Part shown: in pieces, positions 45,207 through 64,000 of the stretch
How positions within the stretch are numbered: position 1 is the stretch's first letter
How the letters are laid out: each line of letters begins with the position of its first letter
From: Rhizoctonia solani
Taxonomy: Eukaryota; Basidiomycota; Agaricomycetes; Cantharellales; Ceratobasidiaceae
Reading direction: 5' to 3'
Assembly: GCF_016906535.1 (NCBI RefSeq)
Contig: NC_057383.1
Coordinates: forward strand, 496,001 to 560,000
Length of the DNA: 64,000 nt
The notes under the pieces: model-generated
Seen by the model: only the letters and a program-made list of their open reading frames with translations
Told to the model about the DNA's origin: nothing
Database searches by the model: none
Position numbers and translations under genes: made by a program

Positions 45207-46379
45207 AGTTGCACTTGCATATGCAGTTGGCGCTCGGGAACTAGGCGCCTGGTGACCGGAATTTCGCCGTGGAATTCTGTCCCTGCGGAAGGTCGCCAAT
45301 ATACAAAGCTTTCGTAAGACGCGTCTTCAATATCTAATCAATTCTTTTCTGCGAACGTATTATTTGAATTCGTCCTGGTCCAGAGTTGTTGAAAACTTTT
45401 CTGGTCTGATTTGGTCGCGTTGTCAAACCCACATCAACTCACGGATGGGGTTTTACGGCGACGTTTTACCAATGTCCTATTTCTTATAACCCCCTGTGTT
45501 ACGTGATTCTACTTTAATCAGCTGTTGTAGATGGGGCGCTTTGTTCTCACCCAGCTCTCAGCACAAATTCTACAAGGTGGCCTGCTAATGAGATTACGTT
45601 TCAATATTGTAGCTCAATGAGCGCACCCGCTTCAGAAAATCCAAACTTTACTGCTCCAAAACAAGTGAGCATTAGTATACGTAGTTATTTTTTTGAGCCC
45701 AAAAAACGAATACCAGTATTACAAATGGATAAATAAGATAAGATAAAATAGAATAAACCAAAGCATGCGCAGAGATCTCTGAACAGGCCTATTGTATACA
45801 AAGATCTTCCTTAGTAAGATGAATACATATACTGGGGACCGGCAACCCTATATGATTTGTAAGCGATTTTTGTCCAATGACAAATTAGTAGGCTACATAT
45901 GTCCAAGGAGGTTGGACAAGTGCCCCGTAATTGGGCGCATTTTCAAAGCTACATCACAGCAAAAATCCTTGTAACTATGTTAATTCCCCCTGTAAAATAC
46001 ATCCATGGAAAGGGAACTTGAAAATATGGGGATAAATGCTGACTTGGTTCCATTTTTTGCAATTTAAACATGGAAGAACTGATTTATACTGAGCTATTTT
46101 TCCAAGGATAGGTGTGTCAAATAAATCTTTATCATATTACTGCCAGAAATCAGGCCTTTACCTATGCTGTGGGCAAGTACAATGGGCCTGAATGTTCAAG
46201 TATTTTCTAGTAAGGCCAATGCTTACTAAGCCACATAGATGAGCAATTGCATCTGCATTTATACATCTCCTTCACTCAACCACCGTACCTGGTTGCATAC
46301 AAGTGGCCATGAGCAATGACTTGACATGTGAAATCAATGAACAAGCAGTCTGCACACCAGAAAGCACATACAAGTTGAT
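45207..46379. other. AT-rich intergenic DNA, no gene seen
   Basis: AT-rich sequence, including an AAGATAAGATAAAAT microsatellite-like run near 45733-45760. No coding pattern. The DNA becomes increasingly poor in CpG toward the transposon block. Confidence 0.5.
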
Positions 46380-47079
46380 TGAGCCCTCATACCCCCAAGA
46401 TACCAGCCACTGGCCTTACAGAGCCCAGTCTCAGTAACAAAGCTGTACCAACAGCAGTAGCAAGACCAGCAAATAGATCAAAGGAGCTGGGGTCAATAGA
46501 GCTTCAGATGAAGCAACTAAGAACAGGCTATAAGAATGCAATACAACAAGAGAAACAGGCTAAGACTAAGGTAAATTTGTTCAGTCTCTAAAGGTACAAC
46601 TCAGTACTGAAAGAAACCATTTCTAGGCTCAGAAAATGCAATCTAAGCTTGACTCCCTAAAAAACCTTGAGGAAACTGCTCAAAATAATGCAAAACAAGC
46701 TGTACAGGATATGAATTGCATTTTGGAGCTTGAGAGTTGTGTAACAAACATAACCAACCAGCTAGAGACTGTGTTAGCTCAGAAGCACAAAAAGGATACT
46801 ATACTCAGCTCCCTCACAGCTTGTTTAGCTGCTTTGCGTTGCGCTCAGGATGGGGCATGTAAAAGAACTGAAAGGATGGAAAAGAAACTAAAGGCCACCT
46901 TGGAATCAACCACAAGAGTTACCTACTTGCTCAAGGACCCTGTTGGTATCATACATCCCAAAGTCTGTAACATGCTGCGGCAACTTGTATGCAAAGGTGT
47001 ATCAATTGAACACATCCAGAAAGTGATAGATGCGTGCACCAGAGGGTTTGGAATCAACATAGAGGGCAAAATAAGTGCC

Positions 47080-47622
47080 CAAAGTGTCAGAGTCTGACTA
47101 ATAAAGAATGGGATAAATGCCTAAAGAGGCAGTGCTGGCTTTGGGGATAAGCAGAAGACTGCAACCAACACTTTAGATAGAGAGATTACTTGCCAAATAT
47201 GGCACAAGACCCCTTAGAATAGAGCAGGAGAGTGGGGAGGGTAGTCAGTAGATTGACAGGAGGTCAAGTTCTGGTCTGAATGCCAGAACTCTCCCTTCAT
47301 TATATACATCATACAGAACAAGGGAACTGTAAAGTACAAAGGAGAACAATGGAAGACATACTACAAAGGTATGGGTAACTAAGAGAACAATAGAACAATG
47401 CAACTAAGGACATATGGTAACTAAGTAACCAGAGGACAAAGCTAACAGGCTAAACAAAGGGACCATTTGCATTCCATGTTGATTGCTCTGCCAGGGGAGT
47501 CCTGCATGGCCTGTGGTCATGTTGGGAACATCCCCTGGTCCATATAATTTGTAAAATTTAGATAAAAAGATAATAGAATAATAGGGTATCTGTGTTCATG
47601 CCTCTTGGGTCATGACACAAAG
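47080..47622. mobile_element. Solo LTR 1 with CAAAG target duplication
   Basis: The LTR spans 47085-47617 (533 bp), beginning TGTCAGAGTC and ending GGGTCATGACA, so it has TG..CA termini. The host sequence CAAAG is duplicated at 47080-47084 and 47618-47622. On the minus strand its start (TGTCATGACCCAAGAGGC) resembles that of LTR 2, so it is inserted in the opposite orientation. It interrupts the DDE-like gene between codons for Ser and Val. Confidence 0.88.
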
Positions 47623-48125
47623 TGTTGGGAGAATCATGAAGGAGGGCTTTATTAAAGCCAAAATGCAAGTTGCATATGATCTCAATAATACAAAGTGTAA
47701 GTTAACTATCCATATTCCCATCTTTACAATCTAACTATTCTTAAATGTAGATTTTACCATGTGTGGAGATGGTACAACAATAAAAAATCAACAATATGAA
47801 GCTAAAGCACTCCATATGCAATTCCAGACCAACTTAGAGAAGGAAGACAACAATTCAACACACCCTCCATTAGTACAAACCCTGGGTGTCCATAGAGCTG
47901 TTGATCACACAGCACAAACACAACTCTCTGGATGGGTTAATGCTATTGAGTTGTGTTGTGCCTTGTTCTCTTGTAGCCCTATTGGGAAGAACTTGGCTAT
48001 CAACAGCAAAGGGGTGGCCCATAAACTTTGTGGTGTGCTTACAGATCATGCAGCTGATCAAAAGCAACTACTGGAACTCATCCAGAACTGGAAGCAAAAC
48101 TGTGACTGCAAGCTGCGTGGTCTTG

Positions 48126-48582
48126 AGACCTGTCATGACCTTCATTGGCATGACATGAATTTTTACTATTTTCTAGCTTTTTTCTGAGACAGTTTCCTTT
48201 TTTGGTATATATTTATGACTCATCAAGATCATGTGATGTATTTGATATATGATGTGAAATTGTAAATGACTCATTATTTAGTATTGTTGTTTTTGATGTG
48301 GCTTGCTTCATGTATTTAAACCAGGTCAAGTTGCCGCTAGAACAGCAAGACTTGACCTCTTTGTCAATTCATCCTCTACTCTCACCTATCCCTTTGCCCA
48401 AGCCCTTAGTTGGCTATAGTGCACTTTACTAAGCATCATCACCCAGGCCATTGTTGCTCTCTACCCTTAAACATACCCCCTGGGCCCTTGTTGCCCCTCT
48501 CTGTTTCATAGTCCATTGGTGATAGGGCCACAGACTTTAAGCCCCCTTGTACCATAGGTCCAAGCTGAGTTGTGACAAGACC
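48126..48582 (+). mobile_element. Solo LTR 2 with AGACC target duplication
   Basis: The LTR spans 48131-48577 (447 bp), beginning TGTCATGACCTTCATTGGC and ending GTTGTGACA. AGACC is duplicated at 48126-48130 and 48578-48582. A TATTTAAA promoter-like motif is at about 48313-48320. Removing it and one duplication joins RGLET to LKNMSQEDQ in frame. Confidence 0.88.
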
Positions 48583-50429
48583 CTTAAAAACATGTCCCAG
48601 GAGGATCAATTAGAGAAACTCTGGTTGCACATGGAAGCAGCAAGCATTCAGCTTGACAACTGGTTGGAAATCCCATCAGAACAACAGCAGGCTTTGTTGC
48701 ATGATGCATGGCTTGCCTTGGCAACCCAGACAGGTGAAGCTGAATTTTGGAAATTGAGCCCCAAAGTTCAGTTTGATATTGACTTTCTTGCATGGACTGG
48801 GTGTTGTATGCACAAGGAGCTCAATGCTGTAAAGGGGGGCGCTTCAGCAATGGCTAATATGTGGGAAAATCTCAACATTGAGCCTCCTATGGCACTCAGG
48901 AACAAGTATGATATTATTAATTTGAAGCTTTCTGAGAAGGCCAATGAGCACCCAGCCTGGGGAGCAATCAAGCTAAACAGCTTAGCTGGAGCATTATTCA
49001 ATAACAAGGATGACAAGAAAGGACATCAAAGCATTGTAGATAATTATCTCATGGTATGTAACAAACCTGCTTAAAAATAATCACCATATGCTCATTGGTA
49101 CAAAATTACAGGATGTTTTAGGCCATTCCAATCAATTTGCAGACACAAGTAACACCCAATATGGTTTGCACTGCAATGCAGCAATTGAACTTATTGCTCA
49201 CAGGGAAGCATATATTATGCTCCTAGAGGTTATATGCAATTCCAAGAATGTTCCTTCATTCACCAATATTGAGTTGAATGTCTACTGGGCTCTTCAAGAT
49301 GTACCAATGCTCACCAAGCTAGTTGTGCTATGTTTGCATGCACAAGTCATAGGGCGCCCATATATGTGCGCTGTTTGTGGCTCCAATTGCAATGTGTTAG
49401 ACCTAGGTCCACTCCATGACCAGGTTAAGGCCCATTGTCACACAATTGTCAATAATCCCAACCTGCTACTAAACTCCAGCCCCAAAAATACGCCTACACC
49501 AGATGGGCAACCTTGGGACTGTCCAGATGTAATCTATTGGATACAAGCAATGTCAAAGAACCTCCCCTACCTTAAGCATGCTGTAATTGCATTTTTTGAG
49601 GGTCACTGAAGACATGGGAGCAATTTACAGTGGAGTTTGAGCCTGGAGAAACAATTGCAGAAGCTACTCAAGGTCAGCATGATAGTGCATGGAACCCTGC
49701 TACAAACAACATCAGCAAAGGCTTGTTAGGGCAATGCCAACAAATGCTACGTTGGGCACCAAATATGACAGACAACCAGAGGAATGCATGGGTAATGTGG
49801 CATTGTAATGGAACATACAATTGGAGCCAACAGTCACTTACCAAAGAGGACAAGGCTTTTGTGCAATGTGAAGCACAAGTATTGGATTCTAGTGGAGAAA
49901 GCCAACGCATTTGCAAGAGTATCAGCAATGGTCTAATGGAGAAAGTAGTGGCAAACCAGGCTTGGAAAGTCAAGTCTGCAGAGCAAAAGACAGCTTACCA
50001 GAAGAGGATAGCTTTGATTCAGTTGAACAAAGATGCAAGCTACAATAACCTATGCAAGATGAAGGTTTTGGAACTTGACAATCAAATCAACAAGCTGCAT
50101 GAGAGCAATAAGCACACGCTTGTAAAAAGTAGGCTCAAGACAAAACAAGCAAAGGTGTTGGAAATAATGGAGGCATTGAAACAACAAAAAAAGGAAGCTG
50201 AAGCAACAGATCAGCCTATTGTCAGAGCCAACAACTACCACAAGGTAAAGCCCAACAAGCTATTGCCTAATATAGGACTTATCAGCTAGTGGGATCCAAC
50301 AATGCTCAAGGCAATTGCCAGATAAGGGTTTGGACAAGACCAATATAGTAAAGTGCACTAATGCTATAAAGATAGCAGGGCAAGGAACCTTTGACAGGGA
50401 CTGGTATGCTCTCAGGCAATACTCTTAAT

Positions 50430-50758
50430 TGTATGTCTTAGGGTAGTAGATGTGGGATGGGGATAAGAGGTTGAGTTCTGAGGCTTAAGGCTCTCAGAAC
50501 CCTCCTTATTTATTCAACAGAGAAGGGGAAGAGTAATTACATGTACAAACATCATAACAAAGATAAGGTCACATGACCAGAGATAAGAAAACAAGATCAC
50601 ATGACTAAAGGTCATGTGATGAGATTACATAATAAGCGCTCAGCGCCTAAATAGCATAAAGATGCATATATCCATAAATCTTCATGAAAATAGCGCATAT
50701 ATTCACTATTTCTTTGACTTAGTGGATTCTAAGGTGGTCACGCCTTTAGGGCATGACA
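50430..50758 (-). mobile_element. LTR-like segment 3
   Basis: The right end at 50758 reads on the minus strand TGTCATGCCCTAAAGGCGTG, like the starts of the other two LTRs. Its interior (GAGTTCTGAGGC..., 50474 onward) is recognisably related to LTR 1. The left boundary is uncertain (TGTC at 50434 is the best candidate) and I see no matching 5-bp duplication, so it may be truncated or recombined. Confidence 0.6.
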
Positions 50759-50877
50759 CCCATTGGTGGGACTGAACTGAAAGCAGGTATTTTCTTGAGC
50801 ACAGAAGGTGTTGAAATAAAGGATACTAAACCACCAGAAGACAAAGAGATGTACTTTGACAATGAAGTTTGTTTGTA

Positions 50878-51638
50878 GTTCAGTTTTTTTTTCAAATTAA
50901 ACTCATATTCATTTCTTTAACTACATATTTAATGTATCCAAGCAATTACTTCAGGCTATGTTGCTTTGTGGAAGGGTGCACGCAGCATTCTTGGTTTTTA
51001 CTATGAGAGTGGCGCTTAAATTGGTCACGTGATCTGGACAATTCAGACTATGGGGTTGCCAGTCCCCACATATACATACCTACACATATATTGAAATAGG
51101 CCATTGTTGTTAGGATAGCTACACAGCAACTGTGATACATCCATATTCAGCTTGGCAATATTTTCTGCAACTTCAGAGCCCTTGCAAGCATTGCAGAGTT
51201 AAGCCACCTAATTGGAGAACTCCAGAGAACTGCAGAAAAAAAGTGATTTGGTTGAGGAAGCTGAGAAAGCTTTGCATTTATCTTTGTCACACCTACGCTT
51301 TCAACAATCACTATAACCCAGAGAGAATGGTAAACTACTTGGGGGCAGTTACATTCTGTACACTACCCATGAGACCTAAACCCAATATGGTATATAACCC
51401 AACTCTCAGTCCGGACCCTGGTTAATATTATCTGTTTTAGTGACTTGTTGGCCTTCCTTACCTGGCCCATATACTATGACAGTTATTGTTGCAATGTATG
51501 AAGCCTTTTGGGGGTGTATGCTGCTTGAGTTGACCGCTGCAATACTCATTAGATTCAGAGAGAGATTGCAAAGTTCAAGGTGTGGCCCAGATGACTTTGT
51601 ATAGACTAAGGTACATATCAAGTTGGTATACTCATTTG
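50878..51638. other. AT-rich spacer between transposons
   Basis: No gene is seen. A 97-codon frame at 51132-51425 has no recognisable feature. The motif GGCGCTTAAATTGGTCACGT (about 51011-51030) resembles GGCGCTTA motifs that recur in the repeat DNA at the right end of the window. Confidence 0.45.
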
Positions 51639-51851
51639 TATATACACTTGCACCCAAAAAGATTGAGCCACATGAGCTCAAATCAATGACGCTCATGTGT
51701 CACCTGCACAATTGAGAATTTGTTTACAATGTAATAGTAAATTTTGTAGATACAGTAGTATAGAACATATATACAAAATTTTAGATTGAAACTAAGTCTC
51801 CTTGTGGAGATACGCATGAGCAAAATTTTTGGGCTGGCTCATTCTTTTTGA
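51639..51851 (+). repeat. Left terminal inverted repeat of the Tc1 element (CpG-depleted)
   Basis: Compared with the right repeat, every one of the 12 differences is C-to-T or G-to-A in this copy, and 11 fall at CpG. Only two CpG remain here (near 51690 and 51812), against 13 in the other copy. Confidence 0.9.
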
Positions 51852-51938
51852 TCACTTTATATAAGCTACTTGGTCCTCCCTCATCAACTGCCATTTACCA
51901 CCCCTTTTTACGCTCAAACACCTGCCAAGAGTGCACAA

Positions 51939-52976
51939 ATGGCTCAATACACTAGTCCCAAGACTAAGGCTCAGATAATTGCGCTGAAAAAGCTCAAATA
52001 CTCAGATTGGGCTATTGTTCAGCTTTTGCAACCTGAGACCAAGGTCTCTCACGCTACTGTTGGTTGTATCTGGGCCAAGTATGGACTTGCTGATTGCCCA
52101 CTCAATCAACACAATCCCATTCCTGGGCGCCCACAAAAGTTAACCCCCAGCAACATCAGATTTGCTGCTTTGGCCCTAGCTTGGAGTAGAGTACTGACAG
52201 CAGCAAATATTAGACAGCAGTACTTCCCTGCCATTGGGTCCTCTACCCTCTGCTGCTACCTCCAAGAGCTGGGTTTATGGCCGTACAAACGCTGCCAAGT
52301 ACCCCTGCTCACTTATCAGCATAGGAAAGCCCATTGCGCATGGGCCCACAGTCAATTATTCTGGCCACAATCACGCTGGGACAACATTGTCTTCTCAGAC
52401 AAAGTCCAAATCAAGTTATTTGGGGCCAACAGTGGCCAATATTACTGGAGGCAACCTGGTGAGTCCCTGTATAATCCCCAATACACCAAAAAGACAATAT
52501 CTCATGGTGGTGGGGGTATCTTCATTTGGGGGTGCGTTACCCAAGAGGGAGTTGGGCAATTGTACCTTATACAATGCAAGCTGAACGCCCTGGGATACAT
52601 TGAAATCCTTGGGGACGCCTTCTTTGGAACCCTTGCCAACTATAAAATCACCCTGTTTGACATTACATTCCAGCATGACCAAGATCCAAAGCATACAGCC
52701 AGGCTGACACAACATTGGCTTGCCAGTTGGGGTGTAAGCGTCCTCCCATGGCTGTCAAAAAGCCTGGATTTGAACATAATTGAGAATGTCTGGTGGCATC
52801 TGAAGGAGCACGTGCGTACTCACCAACCTCCCACTTCAAATAAGGAAGAATTATGGAAAATAGTGAGGGACAAATGGAAACAAATTTCCCCAAAATATAT
52901 TGGCAATTTGTATGATTCATTACCGCATCAAGTACAAGCTGTGTATTTAGCTAAAGGTGGAAACACCAAATACTAG
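51939..52976 (+). CDS. Tc1/mariner-family transposase, apparently intact
   Basis: Cut-and-paste DDE transposase of 345 residues. The first in-frame ATG is at 51939 (MAQYTSPKTKAQIIALKKL); the frame is open to 51870 but only with TTG. A helix-turn-helix DNA-binding region (AQIIALKKLKYSDWAIVQLL, then GRPQKLTPSN at about 52125) is followed by the catalytic core. First Asp in NIVFSDKVQIKLFG (about 52381-52420); GGGGIFIWGCVTQEG matches the conserved Gly-rich loop (about 52509-52553); second Asp in FQHDQDPKHTA (about 52667-52700); the acidic third residue in LDLNIIENVWWHLK (about 52765-52806). SLDLN replaces the usual SPDLNP, a deviation next to the catalytic Glu. There is no internal stop or intron. 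The element could be recently active. Confidence 0.93.
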   Translation: MAQYTSPKTKAQIIALKKLKYSDWAIVQLLQPETKVSHATVGCIWAKYGLADCPLNQHNPIPGRPQKLTPSNIRFAALALAWSRVLTAANIRQQYFPAIGSSTLCCYLQELGLWPYKRCQVPLLTYQHRKAHCAWAHSQLFWPQSRWDNIVFSDKVQIKLFGANSGQYYWRQPGESLYNPQYTKKTISHGGGGIFIWGCVTQEGVGQLYLIQCKLNALGYIEILGDAFFGTLANYKITLFDITFQHDQDPKHTARLTQHWLASWGVSVLPWLSKSLDLNIIENVWWHLKEHVRTHQPPTSNKEELWKIVRDKWKQISPKYIGNLYDSLPHQVQAVYLAKGGNTKY

Positions 52977-53053
52977 AATTTGTATCCAAATTATTCAGTT
53001 TTGCATGTCATTTTGGGTGCATGCGTGCAGTTGCAGGTGCAATTTGAAAATGC

Positions 53054-53266
53054 TCAAAAAGAATGAGCCAGCCCAAAAATTTCGCTCACGCGTATCTCCA
53101 CGAGGAGACTTAGTTTCAATCTAAAATTTTGTATATATGTTCTATACTACTGTATCTACAAAATCTACTATTACATCGTAAACGAATTCTCAATCGTGCG
53201 GGTGACGCGTGAGCGTCATTGATTTGAGCTCACGTGGCTCAATCTTTTTGGGCGCAAGTGTATATA
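53054..53266 (-). repeat. Right terminal inverted repeat of the Tc1 element (CpG-rich)
   Basis: Retains 13 CpG sites, against 2 in the left repeat. It presumably represents the ancestral state. Confidence 0.9.
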
Positions 53267-53361
53267 ATCCTTCTGAGTACGCTAGGCCGCAATGGTTAGT
53301 ACCAAATCTCATTATGATTAACAGGATTCACGCCTTGCACAGCGCCCAGCACGACCTCTTA

Positions 53362-53568
53362 CTCTACGGGGTTCCGAAAATCTCGGGAGCACTCCGAGAC
53401 TCGCTATTGTCGGCGAGCACTCCGGAGCGTCTACTATGACGCTCAGAAGTGCTCGTGGAGTGCTCTCGAGTGCTCGCCGAGCAATCCGGATCCGTCGGAT
53501 CCTAACGAGGAGGTTCCCAAAACCGGAGCACTCTAGAGCGCTCCAGAGTTTTTGGGGACCCCGTAGAG
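53362..53568 (+). repeat. 207-bp inverted-repeat element, copy A (MITE-like)
   Basis: Begins CTCTACGGGG and ends CCCCGTAGAG, with an interior of repeated GAGCACTC/GAGTGCTC words and the block GGATCCGTCGGATCCTAACG (about 53490). A diverged copy in the opposite orientation is at 58701-58880. Small size, inverted ends and two or more copies suggest a non-autonomous DNA transposon. It is much richer in G+C and CpG than the neighbouring transposon block. Confidence 0.75.
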
Positions 53569-53989
53569 TATACCCGTGCCGGAGTCAGAATCTTGCGTAC
53601 TCGAGAGGACTCAGCCACAGGTTGAGTGCAGTCTCACTCGTGTAACCAGTCGTGACCCTATCACATCCGACTCTCATCTAATGCATAATATCGTAAGATA
53701 TTTGCTTTTACCGGTACTCTGGCTAAACTCTTGCAAAGGATGGGCTGTGCATCAAAAGCTCGACGAAAATGTTGATTCCTGTTTCGAGGTCGCTTTGTTC
53801 AAACACGAAGTACTAGTTAAGCGTTCATTACCTTCCCTACCAGTTCTTAAAATTCCCATTCTTTTTCCTCCTTATTTTATTTTGTTTTCTGTACGCGCAG
53901 TCACCGGTATTATTAATTACCCACTGGATGGGCCTCGTACGGTTCTGGTCATGTTTCGTGTGCTAGTTTTTTATGCCTAATTATAATGT

Positions 53990-54460
53990 ATTACAGTGAA
54001 TTTCATAAAATGAACACTTGATGACTATACAAAAACAAGGGGGTGGCACAAAATAAGGGGGGATGGCGTGAATACGCGAGACGGAGAAGCGATCTTAAAG
54101 TAAGGGGAAACACCCTTGAGACTAGGGGGTTACCTACCGTAAACTAAAGGGGGGTTTCTTTTCACGGTGCTGGTGACCGGATTTTATTCTATGTATTCCT
54201 ATGAAAAAATAATGTGTAATGAATTTTGAACGATCCAGTACTGGGTGACATCAAATGGAAAATAAGGAGGTAAACCACAAAACGTGGGTGGGTGGCACGA
54301 ACGAAAAACAAGTGGCTTACCCCATAGAATTGTCCCAGGGGTATAACACCCCTAAAGTTAAGTGAGTTTTCCCTTTAATCTCACAGGGGGTTACCACCTC
54401 AAAATAAACGCGGGTTTCCCGGTCAGTTTAAGGGTTTCTTTTCACTGTGGAAGGCTACAA
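53990..54460. repeat. Diverged G-rich duplicated unit in a gene-free region
   Basis: Two related blocks share AGGGGGTTACC (about 54124 and 54387), GGGTTTCTTTTCAC (about 54153 and 54432) and GGGTGGCAC (about 54040 and 54290). I see no coding potential. The wider stretch 53569-54668 holds no supported gene. Confidence 0.45.
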
Positions 54461-54668
54461 AACTTCCCACACTACATACTGATTCCCGGTAGGTTTTTGA
54501 GTAATACAATAAGGCTATCTCTTAGGGAATTTCCGTATCTTTAATTGGCACAGCAGCGCGCTGGGGTGTTTTTAGACTATGAATACTTCATGAACTGTAC
54601 ACGTGATAGCATATGTACAAGCACTTAAGCCCTAGTGCTAGGGTAAAGATGCAATGGTGACCTGGAGC

Positions 54669-57600
54669 TTAAAATTCGATCATTATAAATATATCCGGTG
54701 AAGTCTTGAAAGTACGATCAAGAAAGTCATCAGAATCGTATATGCAATCATCAAGATGAACTTGGGCTCTGTGGCTTTCGCTTGAGTCATGCAACGCGAA
54801 ATTGGGTTTATTACATACCTGGTCGGTGAACTTCTTATCTAATTCATTGTTCAGTCCAAATGCCAACGTCGTCAATACCGGGTCCTCAAAGTTTTCGGAA
54901 CAAAACTGGCGTAAATTGGTCACCAATAGACTGTTATCAGAGCCTCCTTCACGACTCAACCACTCAGGGAGATCAATGAGCAGTCTCCTCCACATTTTCT
55001 GATCCTGGCGCTCGCGTCGGTGCAGGATCCCTTTGGCAAATGCGCCAAGGGTACCATATCTTGTCATTTGAATTAGAACTTCGGATATCCGGTTGCCTGG
55101 GTTGTCTTGTGCATATTTGCTACCCTGGTAATCGGAAGTGCTTGGTATTATCTGCATGAAATGATCAAAGGTCGCGATAGCTTTTGAGCGGAGATCTTCG
55201 CTTTCTTTCATGATCTCCGCTAGTTTAAGCGGGAGATTAAGAGATAAAAAGAACACCCAGTCTACAGGCACTGGATCACGGTACGTCCTTGTGTTCATGC
55301 CATCGTGTTTAGGGTTTGTATTTGTGAAGAAATATTCGTTCAACGCGTTTAGGCATTGCCCACTAAGCTGTGGAGTGCTAGTCAGATCGAGAAGTTGTAG
55401 GATAGGTGTGAGTAACTGGTGCCCAAATTCCGACAATAAATAGCTCTTGTCCCAGATACATTCCAGCAATAGTGCTTTGTCTTCATCTTGGAAAGGATGC
55501 AACGGGCCCTGAAAGGGTGATGGGCTCAGACATCGAGTAACGGCATCTGCCATAAGTGAACGAAGGTCTGTTGTCGGTGGGAGAATGTGGGGGAGCAATA
55601 CGGGGCCAGAATGAAAGATAACGGGCATGCTGTTTAGCTGGATTGTAACAATTTTGACAATCTGGTGAGTCAAGCTTCCCAGTCCTAAGACCGAGATTGA
55701 ATCAAGTAGCCCAGATAGACCAATTAAGAGTAAACTATCAGCATATTTAAGCAGGTAGTCAGGATTATTGGATATTATGCGAGCCATTTTTTGCGCTATG
55801 AGAGAGCGCCTCTTAACATTTGGGGCATGGATTAGACCCGAGCCGGCTTCCTTGGATATGTCCTGGTTAGTGTTATCTATCTCAAGATTGGTATCTGAGA
55901 TGTAATCAGAAGCAGAGACCCAGTGCTCTTCTGTGGTTGTATGTTTGTCGTCCAGGAACTCTTGATTTTCGGAAAACAGAATTCCCATGACAGCTAGGAC
56001 AGCAGACATTCCTGGCCGAGATGAACCGTCGAGAAGAGACGAGGAGAAGAGCCCCAGCAGAGGATGAAATATTTCTCCTTTCTCCTGTTTGCTCAAGTCC
56101 CACCGCCAGTATGCCAACTCAAAGAGAAGAGCGTTTACGGTACGATCAATCATACCAGCTCCTAAGGTCATAGTTAAGTCCGTAACACCCTTATTTTCTT
56201 CTTTTTCTTTGCCTTTTTGGGCTGTTCCTTCTGGCTCTGCTTGATTTGTAGCTATTGAGATGGGCTCGGGGCAATTGCGTCCAGGCTGCCTGGTTTTCGA
56301 AAGAATTGAAATCAACTGGGCCAACATCGACTTCCACTTCTCTCGGCTCTGAGATGAGCGGTTTGTAGAGGTGTACCATGCCGACAAACAAGTGACTCCA
56401 GAACTGGCTGTGGCTGGATTTTCGCTTAAAGCAATTCTGTATTTATAAAAAAATTCAAGCACTGCTGCAGCTGAGTTTTTTTAGACTTACGAAAAAAGTC
56501 CACGTTCAACTGCGATTACTTGATCCTTGTTTAACGCAATCGAGTTTCTCTCCGAATCTACGTGATGTCGTGCTGCGGAGCCTTTTAAAACATCCTGAGA
56601 AATTGTCTGTATGGAAATATGTTTGGTTATATTTGTTAACGCCTGCCCATACAACGCTGCCTTTTTTAATTGAGCATCGTGGATGATAATAGTGCTAGGA
56701 TCGCATTCGCCCTCTTCCAGGGCTCCGTTGAAGATAGCGGTGAATTTTTGGGCAACAAGCCTAATAAGCAAGGCCTTCCCCAGGTACTTGCAGAGCTTTG
56801 TGTCTAGCGAGGGGTCCGAAATGGCCCGAATAGCAATGTCAATGGAAGTTTTGTTTTGTGAGTGCCCTATCAACCATTCCAGTGCTCGAGCTGTGAGATC
56901 ATCTGGTTTGGTTGTTTCGGAGCGGTTCTTCTCCTTCTGATGACATGGTAGCGATTGGACTGGGCTGTGTTCGTCAGCTAAACCAAAAATACGACGTAGA
57001 ATAGAAGAAAAAAACGACCAATATCTTCTGCTGGAAAGCGGGGTGTCGTAGGGGCAGAAGGGAATAAAAAGTGGCATAAGCGTTGTTCCTATGTACGCCA
57101 CAAATGTCGAAATCACAATAACTAGTACCAGAGCTACAATGGTGTGACTGAGCTCGTATAAAAAAAAACAAGTCCAAAAAGGAAGAGCCCTGCATATACG
57201 CGATACAGACATATAGTCGTTAAGATATAAACGTGCAATATAGACCTAAAAAATACATACCAAGTGCGGTATGCATCAATACTGGTAAAGCCAAAGCAAC
57301 ATCTTCTGTCCTCCAGCGTTTTAGTTCGTCGTACCGGGCTTGACGGACCCGTGCTTGTACACATGGCGTAGATAAATCATGACCGTGCCGATAGCCTTCT
57401 CCCCATTGCTTCACTAACATAGCTAACAATGCAACGCTCACACTTAGTGTTAGAGAGAGAAACCATGCACCGTTAATTATGATATCAGCTTTTTTGGGCT
57501 TAAAATCGTTCAAAGGCAATGTCGCATTCAATTCCATGGAAGGGGGCTGATTTGTAGCAATGGCCTGCAGAAGATTGACAATGATCGGTATTCCGGCTGC

Positions 57601-62100: not shown

Positions 62101-62463
62101 GGTTTATCAGTGGATGAGAGAACTCGCTTATCTTTCCGAATCGCTCAACCATATAATACCCACTCTCCGTGACGACTGCATGGAAATAATGGTTTTCAAG
62201 AAATTTAAGGTAAATACCCATGCCTTCGTTTTTAGTGCTCCCTTACTATTATTCCGTCACAGACCAGGGCCATCGTCACCTTTGTAACAAACCTGGGGGT
62301 AACAGAAACAGAACCAACCCCCACACGAATGTCACACTTTGAGCTCCAGACATGGCTAACAAAGGAATATATCCCTTGGAGAGTTGACAATGATGATCAA
62401 ATACTTAATGTTTTTCTGCAGGGAATAGCAGAAGTTTGGGACTTGGTATCAGAGCTTAGTTGA
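59160..62463 (+). CDS. Unknown large protein with tryptophan-every-fourth-residue repeats
   Basis: Four exons are supported. Exon 1 (ATG 59160 to about 59363, ending RALERQQ) joins FDDTLGIFQGPIVDW (from about 59500). The exon ends at TAT-G near 60585, where a GTCAGT donor and an AG near 60639 give the in-frame join SSYG-PIYRSAIEP. The third intron (GTAAAT near 62210 to about 62263) joins VFKKFK to TRAIVTFVTNLG. The stop is at 62461-62463. The N-terminal region has a Cys-rich stretch and ALALMLNVARNCP. A first array WDEAWNSAWKKNWNNAW (about 60248) and a second WAKTWKGTWGAAWETCW (about 61878) place Trp every four residues; shorter versions occur elsewhere (AAWTVAW, about 60839). Between them lies a long Ser/Thr/Pro-rich disordered region. 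No catalytic motif is recognised. It may be a scaffold or helical-array protein. Confidence 0.65.
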
Positions 62464-64000
62464 AATGCCTAATCCAGATACTGAAAACAATTGTACTGCC
62501 AAAGATCTGATGGGAGGAATCTTGTGGAGTGTGCTTGTGGAGTAAGTTGTACAGAAATAAAGTTTGTAATTTAAATGTGATTGTGTCAATTGAGGATACA
62601 TGAATTTATTACAAGATAAGCATACTCAACAAAAAAGGTGGGGTGGAATAACACATGGTAACATGTTGTTGAAATATCAATATCATAACTCAAATACCTG
62701 TGTGCATGTTGCATTTGGACTTGTTTGTACTGTTTATTGTTGTAGACACATTCAATACCAGGGAATTTATTCCCATTTTCTTGGATTTAAACAAAGACAA
62801 TTGGACAACATTTTCAATCACGTGACTCTGGCGCTTATATCATACGCTCAGCGCCAAGCCACGTCCCCACCTGCGCTTAATCAGCATACATAGCCACCTC
62901 CACCTATGACATCATCATGACACGTCAGTGTTGTAGACACAGTTGATACCAGGGAATTTATTCCCATTTTCTCGAATTTAAACAAAGGTTAACGGACAAC
63001 ATTTTTGATCACGTTGTTATGGATATGACATTTCTTCTTTAATCTGTACTTATTTTATTAATTACACTAGTTATCTCACAGTAAATAAATGAGATAAAGA
63101 TGCAAACTAAGATTTTCAAGGTCCCTCTATCCAATAGTGACCTTTACAAAACCTACAAAGCTCAGGAATGCCCTTAATATGCGACGTCTTTTGCATATAT
63201 GCTGTTTTCTCACTCATTTAAATATATATAAATTCAGCTGAGTAGATATACAGTAACAAGTAATATTTCTCTTGTTTGTAGTATTTATTATTCAAGATTC
63301 TATCTTGTGGCTACACACAGAAATATTCAGGGTCCCCCCTGTTGCATAGGCAAGTGCTCCGGCGCTTAATCAGCCCTTAAGCGCCAACGCACTAAATGCG
63401 CCTTTTCTCCATCACCCGGGCATCCCACACTGCCGAATTGCTTGCGCTTAGGTGCGCATGTTTGTGCGCTCCAGAACGCTGGGTCAAACTCCCAAAACGG
63501 ACAACATTTGGCTGAGTTATGCCCCATTTACTGTAAGTACCCAATGCAGGGGTATCCTACCTTTGGGATTGTTTACTCCAAGGATGAAACACTTAGCCTT
63601 GGGACATCTAAGGACCCACACAGGTAAATACTGCCTTGGGGCAAACATTGCCTTGGGGCAAATATTAGGATCTGTTGTTTGTTTACTATGTACCAAAGTA
63701 TTGGCTCCCTCAAGTGTTTCAGTTGCCACCTGTACCTCCTGTACCCCCTCTTGGTATCAATCATGTATATACTTGTTTGTGCACCTTCTCAGGGTATAAA
63801 AGGACCCTGTGAAGACGCTTCTAATGCATCCATTTATCCACTCTTATATATTGACATATACACACAAGCCTTTAACAGCTTATCTGCGCATTTACTTTAG
63901 TGATTGACTCACTGTAAATAGCATAGGAGGTTATTCGGCGCACTAAGACCATAGGCCAGTCCCAACAGACACAGGGTAACCTATTAGTGTACTTACTGCA
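62464..64000. other. Repeat-rich gene-free end of the window
   Basis: An approximately 85-bp segment beginning TGTTGTAGACACA is repeated directly at about 62739 and 62929, including the palindrome GGGAATTTATTCCC. GCGCTTAATCAGC occurs near 62873 and 63363. CCTTGGGGCAAA is duplicated near 63631-63660. TATA-like promoters occur at about 63213 (ATATATATAAA) and 63794 (GGGTATAAAAGG). A stretch starting TGTTATGGATATGAC (about 63015) could be an LTR but lacks a confirmed end. The open frames near 63442-63900 look non-genic. Confidence 0.45.

Follow-up and report, generated by a model that had tools for sequence, protein, structure and literature searches.

Hypermutation of transposons at TpCpG has been described in Microbotryum (Pucciniomycotina), in which C is changed to T at TCG on either strand (PMC5381629 and PMC4352252, in the sections we consulted). 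In AG8, of the same species complex as the genome analyzed here, a RIP-like hypermutation was reported from heterozygous SNPs, with an excess of CpG-to-TpG changes that was commoner near repeats (Hane, 2014; PMC4014442). In the parts of that work that we consulted R. solani was expected to have a CpG and not a TpCpG bias, the latter having been reported for the Pucciniomycotina. Papers on Heterobasidion and Tricholoma likewise describe a CpG bias, and neither text contains the word TCG. Classical RIP prefers CpA and needs RID, and according to the extracts available of two reviews the main basidiomycete methyltransferases are DNMT1 and DNMT5, not DIM-2. With RIPper, 0.07 and 0.09% of two AG8 genomes were estimated to be affected, and a different process was suggested (PMC12774589, in the part seen). 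A RIP-like defence in mushroom-lineage basidiomycetes is an unsettled question in the field, and we found no report of a TpCpG bias in an agaricomycete in the parts of the open-licence PMC literature that our search reached.

We have analyzed a window of 64,000 nucleotides of Rhizoctonia solani (the whole stretch presented above, positions 496,001 to 560,000 of NC_057383.1). It contains a 1.6-kb Tc1-type element, L001, with TA and a CACTTG end on both sides and inverted repeats of about 220 bp. The left repeat is at 51639..51858 (plus strand) and the right one at 53047..53266 (minus strand). Between them the body (51859..53046, plus strand) holds a Tc1-type transposase frame of 345 codons (51939..52976, plus strand), still open despite the CpG losses. 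Both TA dinucleotides were read from the sequence, the one beside the left CACTTG end, a presumed target duplication, at 51643..51644 (not among the variable positions listed) and the one beside the right end at 53261..53262. The frame's own match to DDE_3 reaches 23.6 bits, under the Pfam cut-off of 28.6; its relatives carry PF01498 and PF13358 and include R. solani proteins named Tcb2 transposase. With its TA-flanked terminal inverted repeats and Tc1-type DDE transposase, recognized through these relatives, L001 resembles the Tcb2-like Tc1/mariner elements, and compared with such transposons we saw nothing unusual in it except its decay.

An earlier note, made from the letters alone, had described gapless repeats in which only the left one was decayed, and our realignment confirmed it. 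Over the outer 213 bp the two repeats differ at 12 positions, always T or A on the left and C or G on the right, 11 of them at CpG. Two more differences, at repeat positions 214 and 217, lie beyond this outer part. Counted over 220 bp, the left repeat has 2 CpG and the right one 13, and at 181 non-CpG sites there is a single difference. That both ends were nearly identical at insertion is a reasonable assumption, since in L008 and L009, two copies with little decay, the repeats are identical at all but 1 of 213 bases.

Decay was scored at 108 family CpG sites, each present in 3 or more of 30 copies of the element. In L001, 17 of the 94 sites to the left of the right repeat were kept, against 13 of 14 within it (Fisher p 7e-8). 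Of the TCG-type sites, 0 of 44 survived before the right repeat and 5 of 6 inside it; the other CpG sites gave 17 of 50 and 8 of 8. Taken part by part, the left repeat keeps 0/6 TCG-type and 2/8 other family CpG sites, the body 0/38 and 15/42, and only the right repeat is nearly undecayed. The body is as decayed as the left repeat, so that the boundary sits at the right repeat, and the proposal that mutation had acted on one end only was wrong. A context-stratified change-point test, matched by 0 of 500 permutations, placed the break at 52,929-53,083; the best interval was between element sites 1291 and 1386 (52,929-53,024) and the next best between 1386 and 1445 (to 53,083). The idea of an edge of a mutated stretch inside a single element is supported.

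A search of the same genome gave at least 111 matches; only the best candidates were scored and the family may be larger. The 30 two-ended copies used comprise 21 near-complete ones, among them L019, whose right repeat is truncated, and 9 that lie in pieces through interruption or internal deletion, and the single-ended or fragmentary L044-L047 were excluded from the counts. Four copies are widely split (L031/032, L034/035, L040/041/048 and L042/043), with pieces about 7 to 45 kb apart; since the pieces are colinear and have a few bases of overlap, we infer that each copy is one element. This applies also to L040/041/048 and L042/043, which are among the sharpest parallels to L001 and whose pieces lie tens of kb apart. 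The copies are related, so that site counts are not independent and agreement per site is the safer measure. Other copies, too, have one-sided CpG differences, and these occur in both directions: they are losses on the right side in L012 (8/8) and L017 (6/6) and on the left side in L040/041 (7/7), L042/043 (7/7) and L039 (6/6). L010 and L011, which lie on different contigs, have lost almost the same sites, and 300 bp of flank on either side are identical between them, as a duplicated chromosome segment would leave.

The losses have a strong sequence context. At the 41 CpG sites where just one strand reads TCG, that strand took 912 losses and the opposite strand 47 (about 19:1); the TCG strand had the majority at 41 of 41 sites and was the only one changed at 21. 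Outside the repeats the figures were 718 against 42 over 31 one-sided sites. A Bradley-Terry fit for the base before CG gave T 50.2, C 4.0, A 2.0 and G 1. In nine copies of intermediate decay, 28 of 449 TCG-type sites were kept, as compared with 306 of 518 other CpG. Doubly changed TA sites were rare (13 cells over 108 sites), and private changes outside CpG were few among the 30 copies, the oldest excepted. As in RIP, the C-to-T changes are concentrated in repeated DNA (30 copies, 108 CpG sites) and the mutated C has a fixed context, though not the CpA of ascomycetes. Eleven codons were CGA in at least two copies, and the outcome was CAA 203 times and TGA 64 times. This is the direction predicted by the context, and leaves fewer stops than a strand-neutral CpG loss would. 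The uniform repeat sites 71, 83, 89, 165 and 183 had been considered an ancestral haplotype; all are TCG sites, the context explains them and the idea was dropped. We also looked for strand polarity along the copy, as in classical RIP, and among 11 copies there were no general strand runs. L001 alone departed (25/35 against 17.6 expected, sd 2.9), from which we claim nothing.

The decay of L001 was fast relative to other change. In 1,367 sites it shows 3 private non-CpG substitutions, and its nearest relative is 9 differences away, while 78 of 108 CpG were lost. Per site this is about 200 to 600 times the rate of other substitution, although some of the losses may predate the private substitutions. 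Similarly, L040/041/048 and L008 are separated by 2 non-CpG differences, with 65 of 107 and 22 of 108 CpG lost, respectively. According to the earlier note, finding the same left/right difference in other copies would mean that it predates this insertion. Its 11 left-lost and right-kept states are in fact shared at 7 sites by L042/043, 5 by L040/041, 4 by L039 and 3 each by L003 and L036. Five of the 11 are TCG sites with a nearly invariant direction in the family, where sharing is uninformative. At the 55 sites where the direction of loss is not fixed, that of L001 matches the direction in L042/043 at 15 of 23 (12.5 expected) and the one in L040/041/048 at 8 of 22 (11.9 expected), while the pair L016/L019, our positive control for shared descent, agrees at 41 of 41. 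These shared states touch the note's condition in part, but as the undirected losses agree only about as often as expected, the break of L001 and those parallel to it look independent and not inherited, as far as the undirected sites go. Nearly all undirected losses are shared within each of the pairs L016/L019 and L020/L021 (42/48), and these seem to be decayed elements that were copied or duplicated after their decay.

We have examined the other copies to find out where their decay stops. The break test was applied to 25 of the 30, skipping five with too few CpG left. In nine the break was equaled in no more than 5 of 500 permutations (L001, L003, L006, L012, L017, L031/032, L039, L040/041/048 and L042/043), and the other 16 had none at that level. 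In all nine the better-kept part was the outer one, about 180-460 bp long, itself half decayed in L017 (12/25) and L031/032 (11/27). Again in all nine, the better-kept side had the CpG-richer 1-kb flank, and with 300-bp flanks two of them (L003 and L017) pointed the opposite way. Over the 60 ends, the CpG retention of the repeat followed the CpG o/e of the adjacent kilobase with a rho of 0.80 (partial rho 0.61 after body retention). Within elements, the difference between ends and that between 1-kb flanks were also correlated (paired rho 0.64, n=30; swap test p 0.0002), with 18 of 22 signs in agreement. The paired value was 0.67 without L011, L019 and L021, and 0.63 when L001 was left out as well. 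Without the four widely split copies the ends gave 0.83 and the pairs 0.57 (p 0.002, 26 copies), and in the 21 near-complete copies alone 0.81 and 0.59. With 300-bp flanks the paired rho was 0.41 for all 30 copies, and was not significant without the split copies (0.23, p 0.27) or in the 21 near-complete ones (0.19, p 0.41), indicating that the paired link is with the kilobase. The comparison of other copies with the state of their flanks, proposed as a check, came out positive at that scale. Exceptions are the left end of L031/032 and the two ends of L034/035, whose TCG sites are decayed although the adjoining kilobase is CpG-rich. Spreading solely from the left, as first suggested, is not supported, given copies such as L012 and L034/035, with CpG-rich 1-kb flanks on both sides and decay also in the middle of the element.

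The loss of TCG extends outside the elements. Dropping L011, we analyzed 58 ends: 23 decayed ends of copies that are not old, 19 intact ends and 16 ends of 8 old copies. At the 23 decayed ends the TCG/(TCG+TTG) ratio, moving outward to 1,450 bp, was 0.04, 0.03, 0.10, 0.16, 0.28 and 0.31, so that the loss fades over several hundred bases. At the intact ends it was 0.30 in the first 100 bp and 0.38-0.43 afterwards, with little loss beyond those first bases, and the old copies lie in nearly TCG-free surroundings (0.00-0.04). Such a halo is what leakage from a repeat looks like, the copy number of the flank having been checked for three flanks; for the two besides the left one of L001, weak matches exist at other places (110 bp at 78% and 215 bp at 75%). 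Where the mutated stretch ends thus appears to be variable, ranging from some hundreds of bases within the element to several hundred past it, the right side of L001 being an inside case.

L001 itself is at the end of a CpG-poor domain (45801..53000, CpG o/e 0.14, delimited by 500-bp windows below 0.35). Its right flank (53267..55000) is CpG-rich, with a 1-kb o/e of 1.05, which bears out the description of a left end facing CpG-poor and a right end facing CpG-rich DNA. The left flank (50764..51638) has only a 61-bp partial match elsewhere and no TCG on either strand. Further to the left, the genome search gave no other match for 45,500-47,075 and 48,590-50,205, which is not a proof of rarity. 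The three stretches total 4.1 kb, and with no match or one of 61 bp they do not fit the label of transposon block given to this region. Counting both strands, 46,000-47,075, 48,590-50,205 and 50,764-51,638 have 0 TCG and 249 TTG and the left repeat plus body of L001 0 and 103, and in positions 1-45,500 of the window the TCG/(TCG+TTG) ratio is 0.43. The TCG rule holds, then, also outside the Tc1 family within the same domain. Mutated DNA includes repeated bodies as well as stretches with no other match found, and the adjacent 210-bp high-copy repeat is CpG-rich.

This last repeat, in the right flank at about 53360-53570, has 35-bp inverted ends and occurs in at least 39 other genomic places; it is CpG-rich here though high-copy. 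The match-free parts of the left block are separated by high-copy stretches, each about 450-540 bp long, near 47,085-47,620, 48,131-48,577 and 50,221-50,760. The first has at least 25 other long matches at 95-99% identity and the third at least 39 at 93-99%; these two are possibly solo repeats of a larger element. A run of plus-strand reading frames (46627-50289) in the CpG-poor DNA, for part of which the genome gave no other match, is interrupted by two high-copy stretches. Among seven frames of the left block searched against Pfam, four had sub-cut-off matches only and three had none. The block may represent one old element or a gene, or could be an old repeat whose other copies have vanished. 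A second, smaller CpG-poor patch (o/e 0.37) is found at 62201-62900.

Several explanations other than a directed process were weighed. Passive deamination, with the left part CpG-methylated and losing CpG spontaneously and the right end in unmethylated DNA, would suit a pattern almost confined to CpG, with few doubly changed TA sites and with losses that track the CpG content of the 1-kb flank, in a genome that has a DNMT1-like methyltransferase gene. Spontaneous deamination of 5-methylcytosine is known for mild 5' context effects only. The 50:4:2:1 preference before CG is not mild and is not expected of it, and in L001 CpG loss outruns other substitution some 200- to 600-fold. As the sole cause, which is how the asymmetry had been read, it fails on the roughly 19:1 choice of the TCG strand and on a CpG loss far faster than other change. 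A methyltransferase with a strong preference of its own for TCG could rescue this explanation, and on balance we judge it decidedly unlikely. Gene conversion or ectopic exchange, by which a decayed element would have received a fresh right repeat, alone or together with its flank, has many possible donor copies, and the break does fall within about 120 bp of the inner edge of the right repeat. But the subfamily variants 106T and 140A, present at both ends of L001, occur in no more than 10 of 60 repeats (5 copies), and of the other 8 subfamily repeats only the right one of L042/043 is undecayed. That one is unlike the right repeat of L001 at position 102, and at 149 its loss took another direction. 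The two L001 repeats, besides, differ at just 1 of 181 non-CpG sites, and conversion predicts neither the flank link nor the halo; we consider it most improbable.

An asymmetry inherited from an already asymmetric source element was also judged unlikely, indeed very much so. The 7 of 11 differences shared with L042/043, of the same subfamily, and five TCG-type left sites lost in all four subfamily relatives would agree with it. At undirected sites, though, L001 and L042/043 stay close to chance (15/23 against 12.5), while shared descent looks like 41/41 or 42/48; at 37 of the 77 left losses of L001 a subfamily relative retains the CpG, with only 5 TCG-type sites among them, and none of the four has lost left sites 13, 33 or 60. 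Finally, a RIP limited by homology could leave the ends of a repeat under-mutated where they adjoin unique DNA. The better-kept outer 180-460 bp of the nine broken copies is what such an edge effect would give, and the CpG-rich state of the 210-bp high-copy repeat to the right of L001 was counted in its favor. DNA to the left with no or one short match elsewhere is nevertheless fully mutated, and at decayed ends the halo reaches hundreds of bases past the repeat. Leakage must be added to explain this, which makes it nearly the same as our preferred explanation; we consider it rather unlikely.

The reading that we prefer, with a probability of about 0.72 and on sequence evidence, is that L001 was partly destroyed by a leaking, RIP-like C-to-T hypermutation with a preference for TpCpG, whose edge was caught inside the element. 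The changes strongly prefer the C in TpCpG, with relative strand rates near T 50 : C 4 : A 2 : G 1, and the process would leave a continuous mutated stretch that spans the body of an element and can run into neighboring DNA, some of it apparently single-copy. On its left side L001 would merge with an already mutated domain, and with the right edge at 52,929-53,083 its right repeat would have escaped. Repeats may be the trigger, the process may work in bursts, and a dedicated enzyme, either a DNMT1-type methyltransferase or an associated deaminase, presumably acts. A six-frame search found one PF00145 locus (C3:2182119-2183213), to be read as at least one, as genes split by introns can be missed; one reading-frame piece of it was closest to DNMT1 chains among solved structures. 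The DNMT1-RFD domain gave no match here and none in the control genomes either. The first reading stands as to the observation and the domain edge, while the mechanism and the surroundings were wrong in detail. More tentatively, we think it possible, though less likely than not, that agaricomycete fungi, regarded as lacking RIP or as having no more than a plain CpG bias, direct TpCpG hypermutation by chromatin domain and not by repeat homology, in which case the copies would keep exact domain edges, readable genome-wide from TCG-to-TTG steps.

The TpCpG signature together with the variable edges is the stronger result. A signature specific to TCG tells which word has to be counted, and it would explain the low RIPper figure if that tool counts the dinucleotides of ascomycetes. 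Elements with one spared end give edges to about 150 bp that can be overlaid on methylation and histone maps.

Compared with known systems, the R. solani family departs from the CpA preference and RID requirement of classical RIP in that its changes are at CpG, above all TCG. It resembles ascomycete RIP in its leakage, which there too spills from repeats into adjacent single-copy DNA (PMC4014442, in the part consulted). With the AG8 study it shares the species complex and the excess of CpG-to-TpG changes near repeats; the evidence there came from heterozygous SNPs, whereas here, among transposon copies, TpCpG dominates. The hypermutation of Microbotryum, as far as the sections seen describe it, is alike in changing C to T at TCG on either strand in transposons. 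R. solani, unlike Microbotryum, is an agaricomycete, and to that system it adds a measured order of contexts, a halo and edges inside elements.
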